Translations under genes and position numbers: made by a program
From: a virus
Length of the DNA stretch: 20,271 nucleotides
Virus record (IMG/VR): IMGVR_UViG_3300050821_000790
Coordinates: 1-20,271 of that record
Direction: 5' to 3' (one strand)
Shown: positions 1 through 20,124 of the stretch, piece after piece
Position numbering within the stretch: the stretch's first letter is position 1
Layout: each line of letters starts with the position of its first letter
The notes under the pieces: model-generated
What the model was told of the DNA's origin: nothing
Databases searched by the model: none
What the model saw: the letters and a program-made list of their open reading frames with translations, nothing else

Positions 1-225
1 GGTTCGCGCCACGCAGATCCGCGTCACTCAGGTACGCGCCACGCAGATCCGCGTCACTCAGGTACGCGTCACTCAGGTTCGCGCCACGCAGATCCGCGTC
101 ACTCAGGTACGCGTCACTCAGGTACGCGCCACGCAGATCCGCGTCACTCAGGTACGCGCCACGCAGGTTCGCGCCACGCAGATCCGCGTCACTCAGGTAC
201 GCGCCACGCAGGTTCGCGCCACTCA
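1..225. repeat. Tandem 15-bp coding repeat, 15 units
   Basis: Fifteen head-to-tail 15-bp units fill positions 1-225. Only five variants occur: ggttcgcgccacgca, gatccgcgtcactca, ggtacgcgccacgca, ggtacgcgtcactca and ggttcgcgccactca. Each unit encodes one pentapeptide on the minus strand. Units differ at a few fixed positions only, with almost no synonymous drift, which points to recent expansion or gene conversion between units. There are no spacers, so this is not a CRISPR array. Confidence 0.95.
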
Positions 226-337
226 GATCGATCTTGTTTTTGACGGCAAGCTGAAGCGTCAGCTTCATGGAGTTGTCTTCGACATCGTGCTCGAACAGCA
301 CTGCAGCCGTGAAACGATGAGTGATCTGGATTTTCAT
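1..337 (-). CDS. Pentapeptide-repeat protein, partial (runs off left edge)
   Basis: Translation from the ATG at 337 gives a non-repeat N-terminus of about 37 residues beginning [20 protein letters not shown]. It then enters fifteen consecutive pentapeptides of the A(D/N/Y)LxG class: [20 protein letters not shown] and so on to the window edge. An AAGG Shine-Dalgarno lies 7 nt before the ATG. Pentapeptide-repeat proteins fold as right-handed quadrilateral beta helices; some, such as Qnr and MfpA, mimic DNA and bind gyrase, but most phage members have no known role. The N-terminal segment resembles the short leader seen on other phage pentapeptide proteins. It lies downstream of the recombination operon, beyond a terminator. 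The family is clear; the function is not. Confidence 0.85.
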
Positions 338-17679: not shown

Positions 17680-18666
17680 ATGGCATCTCCGGGTCAGTCG
17701 AGCCTGTTCAGCGCTTTCTCCGAACTGGTATCGACAACGTATCGCAATCACCGCAAGGACGTCGCGGACAACGTCTCGAAGCACAATGCGCTGTTCCGCA
17801 AACTCGTATCGAAAGGCCGTATCCGCATTGAAGATGGCGGCCTGTCGATCGTCACCCCGCTCGACTATCAGGCGAACTCGACCTACCAGCGCTATAGCGG
17901 CTACGATGTGCTGAACATCAACGCCGTCGACGTGCTGACCGCTGCGGAATACCCGTGGCGCCAGGTTGCCGTCAACGTTGCCGCATCCGGCCTCGAACTC
18001 CGTACGAACTCGGGCGCCCAGCGGATCATCAACTTCACGAAGGCCAAGATCAAGAACGCCCAGCGTTCGCTGGCTAACGGTCTGTCAGTCGATGTGTATT
18101 CGGACGGCACGGCTGCGAACCAGATCAACGGCACGCAAGCCATCGTGGCGGACGCCGGGACCGGCACTGTCGGCGGCATCAATGCGTCGACATGGGCCTT
18201 CTGGCAGAACCTTGTGCAGTCTGCAGCAGCCCCGATTCAGGGCGGCGGTGCGATTACTCCGTCAGCAACGACGATCGAATCGTTGATGCTTCCGACGTGG
18301 ATCAAGCTGACTCGCGGCACCGATATGCCCGACATGATCGTCATGTCCGATGACTACTTCAGCTTCTACGAGCAATCGCAGACCAGCCTGAAGCGGTATG
18401 CACCGGATGACAACGGCCAGGGCGGCATGGTGTCGATGAAGTACAAGACCGCCGATGTGTTCTTCGATTCGTCGGGCGGCATCCCGACTTCGCACGCGTA
18501 TTTCCTGAACACCGATTACTTGGAATTGGTGGTTCACCGCGACGCGAACATGACCATGATGGACGAACTGCGCAGCGTGAATCAGGACGCTGTCGTAATT
18601 CCGATCCTCTTTCAGGGGAACCTAGTTTGTAGCGCTCGATTCCTTCAAGGCGTTATGAAATCGTGA
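17680..18666 (+). CDS. Major capsid protein
   Basis: 328 aa beginning MASPGQSSLFSAFSELVSTT, with AGGAG before the ATG. It follows the scaffold gene, as expected for the coat. Characteristic segments are VADNVSKHNALFRKLVSKGR (N-arm), YQRYSGYDVLNINAVDVLTA, IVMSDDYFSFYEQSQTSLKR (A-domain helix, about 220-240) and a C-terminal HAYFLNTDYLELVVHRDANM followed by LVCSARFLQGVMKS. The N-terminus is not cleaved by any visible protease. The final stretch (from about 18600) uses CTA, GTT, TGT, CGA, CTT, CAA and GTT codons, unlike the CTG, GTC and CGC style upstream, just where the homing endonuclease gene follows. Confidence 0.9.
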   Translation: MASPGQSSLFSAFSELVSTTYRNHRKDVADNVSKHNALFRKLVSKGRIRIEDGGLSIVTPLDYQANSTYQRYSGYDVLNINAVDVLTAAEYPWRQVAVNVAASGLELRTNSGAQRIINFTKAKIKNAQRSLANGLSVDVYSDGTAANQINGTQAIVADAGTGTVGGINASTWAFWQNLVQSAAAPIQGGGAITPSATTIESLMLPTWIKLTRGTDMPDMIVMSDDYFSFYEQSQTSLKRYAPDDNGQGGMVSMKYKTADVFFDSSGGIPTSHAYFLNTDYLELVVHRDANMTMMDELRSVNQDAVVIPILFQGNLVCSARFLQGVMKS

Positions 18667-18730
18667 TGTGAGCGTTTTCTAGTCAAGACATGGTACTATT
18701 TCGGCACTACCTTGTAAATCGGAGTGTCGA

Positions 18731-19378
18731 ATGAAAACTATCGATATGATCGGGCAACGGTTTGAAAAGGCATTAGTCGTGGAACGGGCACCGAACAAAA
18801 GCGAGAAGGACACCAATGCTCGATGGCACTGCGTATGTGACTGCGGGACCAAATTCATTTCATATGGACAGGATCTGCGGCGCGGCAAGGTCAAGAGTTG
18901 CGGATGTTTGACACGCGGAACGATCGGTGCTCGCTCCCGGAATTTCAACCAGACGCATGGGATGACGGAATCGCGCATTTATCGGATTTGGACGGGGATG
19001 CTGAATCGCTGCCGCAATCCGAACAATGGCAATTTCCACCGTTACGGCGGTCGTGGCATCAAGGTTTGCGATGAATGGCTTCTGTTCGAGGGCTTCGTCA
19101 ATGACATGGGTGTTCCGGCCGATGACATGTCCCTCGATCGTATCGATGGCGACGGCGATTACTGCAAAGCCAATTGCCGCTGGTCTACACGTCACGAGCA
19201 GGCTTCTAATCGGCGCTCTTCCGTGAAACTTACACATAACGGGATAACGCTGACTGCGACAGAGTGGGCCCGAGTGCTGGGGATTTCTCCGACGACCATG
19301 TTTGGCAGGATCAACGCAGGATATCCGCCTGAAAAACTCTTTTCTCGAAATCTCAAGCGAATTGGAGGTCTACCGTGA
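18731..19378 (+). CDS. HNH-type homing endonuclease, free-standing
   Basis: The 215-aa protein begins with a zinc ribbon (Cys34, 36, 38 in CVCDC and Cys57, 59 in CGC). The catalytic region follows: HGMTESRIYRIWTGMLNRCR (76-95), YGGRGIKVCDEWLLFEGFVN (105-124), SLDRIDGDGDYCKANCRWST (134-153) and EQASNRR, the layout of phage HNH/AP2-associated endonucleases. The C-terminus (LTATEWARVLGISPTTMFGR) is a small helix-turn-helix DNA reader. It nicks or cuts DNA and spreads its own gene into empty copies. GGAG lies 6 nt before the ATG. Its GC content and codon style look lower than those of the neighbouring head genes, and its TGA overlaps the next GTG start. Confidence 0.9.
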   Translation: MKTIDMIGQRFEKALVVERAPNKSEKDTNARWHCVCDCGTKFISYGQDLRRGKVKSCGCLTRGTIGARSRNFNQTHGMTESRIYRIWTGMLNRCRNPNNGNFHRYGGRGIKVCDEWLLFEGFVNDMGVPADDMSLDRIDGDGDYCKANCRWSTRHEQASNRRSSVKLTHNGITLTATEWARVLGISPTTMFGRINAGYPPEKLFSRNLKRIGGLP

Positions 19379-20124
19379 CCACAGCAGCAACGCAGTATCC
19401 GCTGATCGGCTCGCAACCGGTCGGCAATTTCTTCACGCCGGACACGACGCAGCGTCATGTGCTGGGTGCACCGCTCGAATTCTCCGACCCGTACTGGGGC
19501 GGCGGCACGGCGGTCTATCTGGCGATTCCGACGTCGATCGCGTTCAAGGTCGGCGAAGTCGTGTACTGGGATAGCGGCAACAACGCAATCGATATCCCGA
19601 ATACGGCCAACCTCGGCTTTCCGGTTGCGCTCGCGATGAACGCCAACGTGGCGAACGCTTCGCAGGTTCAATACGGCTGGTTCCTGACCTCGGGTCAATT
19701 CCCGGCCTTGTCCGGTGCGAGCGTCGCCGCTGCAGCTGCGATCGGCATCACTGCCGCTGGCTCGCTGGGCGCGAACTCGGCGGGCAAGGAAATCCTGAAC
19801 GCGCGCGTGTCCCTCGCTGCAACCACGACCGTCGTCAAGACGAACGTGCAGACGCAGAATGGCTCGCCGAATCTTCGCGTCAACAACTCCGATGGCTGGT
19901 TTGTCGGTATGGCTCTCAGTGGAACGGGCATCCCTGCCTCGACCACGGTCGGCGCCATCTCGGCAGACGGTCGCACGGTAAGCATGGTGCAGACAGGTAC
20001 GACCACGGCGCAGAACGCAACCGCAACCGGTTCGATCAGCGCGACAGGCACGTACAACGATGGCACGCGTTTCTGGAACGTACTGGCAGTCAACTCGCCG
20101 TTCGCTCAGGGCGCAATCACGTAA
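19375..20124 (+). CDS. Probable capsid decoration protein
   Basis: The 249-aa product starts at a GTG inside the homing endonuclease stop (GTGA). The N-terminal half (LEFSDPYWGGGTAVYLAIPT, AFKVGEVVYWDSGNNAIDIP, ASVAAAAAIGITAAGSLGAN, SAGKEILNAR) has the pattern of small phage head-decoration or cement proteins. A beta module of about 75 residues follows (NGSPNLRVNNSDGWFVGMAL, SGTGIPASTTVGAISADGRT) with T/A-rich strands, before the end FWNVLAVNSPFAQGAIT. It follows the capsid gene apart from the inserted endonuclease. Decoration is inferred from place and composition; a minor capsid or head-fibre protein is the alternative. Confidence 0.7.
   Translation: MTTAATQYPLIGSQPVGNFFTPDTTQRHVLGAPLEFSDPYWGGGTAVYLAIPTSIAFKVGEVVYWDSGNNAIDIPNTANLGFPVALAMNANVANASQVQYGWFLTSGQFPALSGASVAAAAAIGITAAGSLGANSAGKEILNARVSLAATTTVVKTNVQTQNGSPNLRVNNSDGWFVGMALSGTGIPASTTVGAISADGRTVSMVQTGTTTAQNATATGSISATGTYNDGTRFWNVLAVNSPFAQGAIT

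Follow-up and report, generated by a model that had tools for sequence, protein, structure and literature searches.

The DNA analysed here (the window) comprises 20,271 bases and forms a virus record of IMG/VR. We refer to the phage that it represents as W, to a homing endonuclease gene as HEG, and to the corresponding loci of relatives by L-numbers. The window carries a podovirus-type major capsid gene followed by a free-standing endonuclease gene and a further virion gene, laid out as follows:

17680-18666, forward strand: major capsid gene, an open reading frame of podovirus type
17680..18597, forward strand: body of the capsid gene, codons 1-306 (PHROG 9953 major head protein, E = 1e-80)
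18598..18663, forward strand: silently recoded 3' tail of the capsid gene, codons 307-328, delimited by codon identity and GC; proposed cleavage-resistant part of a homing unit
18595..18604, forward strand: edge of the recoded segment, matching in position two sites at which relatives carry group I introns
18664..18666, forward strand: capsid stop codon, TGA
18667..18730, forward strand: spacer of 64 bp between the capsid gene and the HEG, absent from HEG-free relatives
18731..19378, forward strand: free-standing HNH-type endonuclease gene, 215 aa (PHROG HNH families)
19375..20124, forward strand: next virion gene, a conserved neighbour with a GTG start; proposed right-hand homology arm

The capsid protein also matches the NCBIfam model capsid_maj_Podo, with 298.9 bits. 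The GTG start of the next gene (19375) overlaps the TGA stop of the HEG, and a GGAGG ribosome-binding site for that gene lies inside the HEG 3' end (19362-19380); the HEG is therefore not cleanly deletable without touching the next gene. In HEG-free relatives, which are the majority, the next gene begins approximately 14 bp past the capsid stop. The 64-bp spacer of W probably holds signals for expression of the HEG; a consensus scan for a forward sigma-70 promoter serving the HEG found none in either the tail or the spacer. At the opposite edge of the window (2-337, reverse strand) is the start of a pentapeptide-repeat-like protein with repeated units, cut by the window edge.

The HEG product matches the HNH endonuclease families PHROG 374 and PHROG 3377 (E = 1.6e-68 and 7e-53, respectively) and has no match in Pfam. 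It consists of an N-terminal cluster of Cys residues, a central HNH-like region (DRID...NCRW) and C-terminal helices. The AF2 model has a mean pLDDT of 92, and comparison of this model with the PDB gave no fold match below E = 0.5. A weak alignment to I-HmuI (1u3e, E = 0.15) places an Arg that is invariant in the family where I-HmuI has its catalytic His, with the Asn kept. Family annotation, together with the genetics of the locus, suggests that the enzyme is catalytically active.

Relatives of the capsid gene were taken from IMG/VR and GTDB genomes, which gave 158 non-identical capsid 3' regions. An HNH gene of approximately 0.5-0.7 kb follows the capsid gene in 19 of them and the others are without one: the HEG of the W locus is thus optional, occupying a single site flanked by conserved genes. 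The family of a Candidimonas relative yielded no further close pairs, a capsid homologue being found in only 4 of its 268 genomes.

The recoded end of the capsid gene

The first-pass annotation, made from W alone, had drawn attention to a run of unusual codons (CTA, GTT, TGT, CGA, CTT and CAA) at the 3' end of a capsid gene that otherwise favours CTG, GTC, CGC and CAG. All of the listed codons are present. The contrast with the body is borne out by CTA and CGA, neither of which the body uses, but TGT has to be set aside as uninformative because the capsid body contains no Cys. Of the remaining codons, GTT accounts in the body for 3 of 23 Val and CAA for 2 of 15 Gln, and TTT is never used (TTC is used ten times). 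No other 22-codon stretch of the gene is as atypical as the last 22 codons, at 2.22 bits per codon (the next best window outside the tail reaches 2.00, and the mean is 1.42). GC is 0.588 over the body and 0.470 over the tail, and the corresponding drop in GC3 is 0.27; a drop of that size occurs in none of 129 HEG-free capsid genes. Taken alone, codon statistics of a single gene are suggestive, and it is comparison with relatives that makes them firm.

The segment, put there at some 20 codons, comprises the last 22, beginning at about codon 307 (18598). Its distance from the HEG needs correction. The switch had been placed 64 bp before the HEG start, which is the length of the intergenic gap; at approximately 18598 the switch in fact lies some 133 bp before the HEG (18731). 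A likelihood change point calculated for W alone is broad and falls at codon 300.

The five closest HEG-free relatives (L002, L005, L006, L007 and L008) have capsids with 94-95% amino acid identity to that of W. Codon identity between W and these five is 0.53-0.70 in the body and 0.29 over the last 22 codons; among the five themselves, identity over the same 22 codons is 0.74-0.82. In the comparison with L002, identical codons number 193 of 276 in the body and 6 of 19 in the tail (Fisher p = 0.001). The alignment to HEG-free relatives that had been proposed as a check thus shows nucleotide identity dropping sharply at approximately 18598, whereas protein identity does not, and HEG-free relatives with identical codons in this segment were not seen. 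The protein end is normal, as the annotation had read it: its amino acids are unchanged relative to near HEG-free relatives except for Ser328 in place of Ala, and in the tail W and L002 differ at this last residue only. Ser318 is encoded by AGC in W and by TCT in all five HEG-free relatives, a two-base difference. These data confirm that the tail of the W capsid gene is recoded.

Origin of the recoded tail

A HEG-bearing phage, L175, can be compared with a HEG-free twin, L385. The two have 97% of their capsid body bases in common. Codons 225-308 (84 codons) are identical; immediately afterwards come 21 tail codons of which 15 differ, all silently. Past the HEG, 96% identity resumes over 2,486 bp, with the initiation codon of the following gene as its precise starting point. 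From this pattern it follows that the replaced stretch extends from approximately codon 308 to that initiation codon. Although the body of L175 is closest to that of L385, its tail codons match L385 at 4 of 19 positions and L380 at 11 of 17. L380 also carries the HEG most similar to that of L175 (83% identical).

Such a tail might have been recoded in place, by silent mutations that gathered after the arrival of the HEG, either as an escape from self-cleavage or through mutagenic repair of breaks, with nothing imported. The conservation of the protein agrees with this: the L175 tail protein is identical to that of the HEG-free twin, lineage-specific residues included, and W departs from L002 at the one residue noted above. 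Silent variation associated with mobility is, moreover, known near intron sites in yeast mitochondria. However, 15 silent changes in 21 codons, beside 84 codons without any, is far more than loss of a site would need and far above background; the divergence of the tails is at the level of saturation, and recoding in place leaves the codons that L175 has in common with L380 to be accounted for. We therefore consider recoding in place unlikely. Because so many silent changes beside an unchanged stretch are implausible by point mutation, the tail is better explained as having come with the HEG, and the likeness of the L175 tail to that of L380 argues for the two having arrived together. Of the two explanations offered by the first-pass annotation, import with the HEG by co-conversion is thus supported over recoding in place, both by the switch between L175 and L385 and by the closeness of the L175 tail to L380.

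Over all HEG-bearing phages there is no correlation between tail similarity and HEG similarity (partial Mantel r = 0.08, p = 0.23), and only the closest HEG pair shows the link. This is as expected if the tails are saturated at silent positions, saturation in a stretch of only 22 codons hiding the signal past the closest pair. The nearest tail belongs to another HEG-bearing phage in 9 of 19 cases; the equivalent counts are 9 for the adjacent 21 codons and 7 for the body, and we do not take this result as evidence. HEG-bearing tails match those of HEG-free relatives at the level that weakly biased, random synonymous codons would give. That they actively avoid the HEG-free sequence was considered and rejected: they seem less alike than chance would make them if the phages' own body usage is the standard (83 observed, 115 expected), but not by uniform or tail-like usage, from which 71 and 77 are expected, respectively. 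Since avoidance does not go beyond saturation combined with a weaker codon bias, the claim is limited to import and long isolation.

Recurrence of the switch and the position of its boundary

The switch is not confined to W and L175. L003 (three records) carries a HEG that is 37% identical to that of W and has a recoded tail of its own, with a codon identity of 0.31 to the HEG-free group and 0.25 to W. For a nearest-neighbour test we took the HEG-bearing phages having a HEG-free neighbour at a body identity of at least 0.80. The median fall in identity from body to tail is 0.124 for these (n = 13) and -0.02 for HEG-free nearest pairs (n = 61; Mann-Whitney p = 6e-8), and only two of the 61 HEG-free pairs show a fall reaching 0.097. 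In a first set of pairs, also with a body identity of at least 0.80, the tail was more than 0.12 lower in none of 191 HEG-free pairs and in approximately 64% of 55 pairs that combine a HEG-bearing with a HEG-free phage. The fall is weak in L014, L015, L031 and L407, and L012 shows no clear switch.

The position of the boundary varies with the type of HEG. Change points lie near codons 300-308 in W, L003, L175 and L380, and near codons 315-318 in L153 and L408, the HEGs of which are 52% identical to each other and not close to that of W. An unrelated endonuclease of the HNH_3/helix-turn-helix type occupies the same place in L012, L023, L035, L064 and L402; in L023 only the last few capsid codons are changed.

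Group I introns are found at the same point. In L406 an intron of 246 bp, ORF-less and assigned to RF00028 with 68 bits, is inserted after capsid codon 306 (equivalent to 18597/18598 in W), and a W-class HEG, 51-57% identical, lies downstream of this intron-bearing capsid gene. Four distant relatives (L436, L437, L443 and L444) have an intron after codon 308 (equivalent to 18603/18604). The window itself gave no match to any Rfam model, the group I intron model RF00028 included. The coincidence, within a few bases, of the intron sites and the recoding boundary points to a shared recognition region, and 18595..18604 may well be the neighbourhood of the ancestral cleavage site.

Introns also occur elsewhere in these loci. 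The capsid genes of L441, L443, L444, L436 and L437 (approximately 45% amino acid identity) are each split by more than one group I intron (RF00028), the positions being close to codons 158, 213 and 293 in the numbering of that protein, along with a split near codon 57 that is not called by Rfam; in L436, L437 and L441 a further intron precedes the capsid gene. Group I introns also mark a second site, at capsid codons 27-33 or thereabouts (L408:2560-2855 and L062:4014-4823), with a similar split in L041. The insert in L062 is approximately 0.77 kb and may encode a protein.

Ordinary phage mosaicism offers another account of the tails, in which recombination at gene ends imported them and the HEG is no more than a neighbour at a boundary prone to recombination. 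Nuclease genes are indeed known at exchange boundaries (PMC10448857), and the two HEG-free pairs mentioned above show a comparable fall. Nevertheless, the fall is almost confined to HEG-bearing phages, the break lies within the gene, at a codon that hardly varies within a HEG type, and it coincides with the insertion sites of introns; mosaicism by itself is accordingly quite improbable.

The right junction is also altered where a HEG is present, and so is the stop codon: the capsid genes of HEG-bearing relatives end in TGA (14), TAA (4) or TAG (1) (n = 19), and those of HEG-free relatives in TAA (119), TAG (16) or TGA (4) (n = 139). It is very improbable that regulation or relaxed constraint underlies the switch, the capsid 3' end drifting, or being shaped by a promoter or RNA, once it lacks the coupled TAAGGAG signal for the next gene and has to serve expression of the HEG from upstream: the overlap of the stop with the ribosome-binding site of the next gene (TAAGGAG), frequent in HEG-free relatives and replaced by the use of TGA in HEG-bearing ones, fits such an origin, as does the lower GC3 of HEG-bearing tails (p = 0.0016), but a constraint imposed by the start of the next gene would span only a handful of codons, well short of 22, the change at codons 307-308 is abrupt, and the scan placed no forward consensus promoter across the tail of W.

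Several relatives depart from the common arrangement. L048 and L026 are HEG-free and yet have TGA stops and HEG-type codons (AGC at Ser318 and CTA/TTT in L048); they are possibly HEG losses that retained the foreign tail. In L018:2422-3801 the HEG frame continues stop-free into the next virion gene, forming one ORF of 460 aa. Endonucleases of the W family are also found one gene further, past the next virion gene (L038:5576-6154 and L375:4266-4865).

A proposed homing unit and its known counterparts

We propose that the recoded tail (18598-18663), the spacer and the HEG (18731-19378) together form one homing unit, a reading that we hold to be probable. Co-infection or superinfection of a cell would bring the HEG together with the capsid gene of a HEG-free relative, which it would cut near codons 306-312. 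Repair from the HEG-bearing genome would follow, with the capsid body serving as the left homology arm and the next gene as the right. The recipient would lose its own tail and the gap of approximately 14 bp, and the tail and HEG of the donor would take their place. With the same protein end and most silent positions different, the donor tail would escape recognition by the enzyme; resistance of this kind fits the anatomy of the locus and published precedents. Any mixing of HEG-bearing and HEG-free tails would restore a site that can be cut, which would explain why HEG-bearing tails are isolated and at silent saturation in genes whose bodies still recombine. In some relatives (L406) protection would come instead from a group I intron in this position. 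A unit working in this way may be mobile at present.

Free-standing HEGs must spare their own genome, and for intronless ones the means is usually left as "sequence polymorphism". The capsid locus provides many natural repeats in one essential gene, and close pairs of HEG-bearing and HEG-free phages place the target within tens of bases, so that the target, the resistance and the tie to intron sites are all directly testable. It implies that the end of an essential structural gene can be owned by a selfish element, which makes the gene a chimera, and that codon-level breaks at the ends of phage genes can mark homing units.

Among known systems, SegF, SegG and MobE of phage T4 provide a likeness in their intronless homing, in the co-conversion of flanking coding sequence and in marker exclusion (PMC2988022). 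Cut sites of the T4 enzymes, however, are usually hundreds to thousands of bp from the gene, whereas the divergent segment of W is a compact 3' end adjoining the HEG. The effect proposed for the silent differences of the W tail has a counterpart in gp210 of phage PhiPA3, a phage HEG whose target in a relative is a virion-related gene that is essential: phage viability was restored by 17 silent changes in that gene designed against recognition (PMC11620839). There the enzyme is intron-encoded, the protecting element is the intron, and the silent recoding was engineered.

The WHO elements of Torulaspora and Lachancea yeasts are units of an endonuclease and a resistance-conferring FBA1 3' end, and homing swaps that end (Coughlan et al. 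2020, eLife 9:e55336, PMC7282813). As in those elements, W has a free-standing endonuclease just downstream of an essential gene whose two ends differ in history. Conversion tracts of WHO elements extend only 5-14 bp leftward (upstream) of the cut (PMC7282813), and tracts as short as these would explain the sharp left edge of the W tail. The differences are considerable: W is phage DNA with an HNH-type enzyme only, and WHO enzymes are LAGLIDADG proteins with a zinc finger; the W tail is only about 66 bp, there are no clusters, and the right homology arm is the next gene, not a duplicated fragment. A leftover fragment of capsid tail between the HEG and the next gene was found in none of the HEG-bearing loci. 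With no remnant of an old tail, the W unit would work like a WHO element without being a member of the WHO family.

In cyanophage S-PM2 the endonuclease F-CphI is directed at the intron site of psbA, the gene beside its own, and the intron blocks it there, an arrangement termed "collaborative homing" (Zeng et al. 2009; PMC6083498). Here too a free-standing HEG lies beside its proposed target gene, and the putative target region coincides with a group I intron site; L406, with both the intron and a W-class HEG, resembles the F-CphI arrangement, and W looks like its intron-free counterpart. W differs in having no intron, protection being proposed to come from the silently different tail, and the F-CphI family in having an Endo VII motif. 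Tentatively, and short of an even expectation, we suggest that the capsid 3' end may be a shared homing node at which two interchangeable protections, an intron at codon 306/308 or a travelling, saturated tail, serve against the same class of HEG, and that the cassette of tail and HEG, with at least four HEG types, may constitute a distinct and recurrent class of mobile phage element that evolved independently, in parallel to the WHO elements of yeasts.
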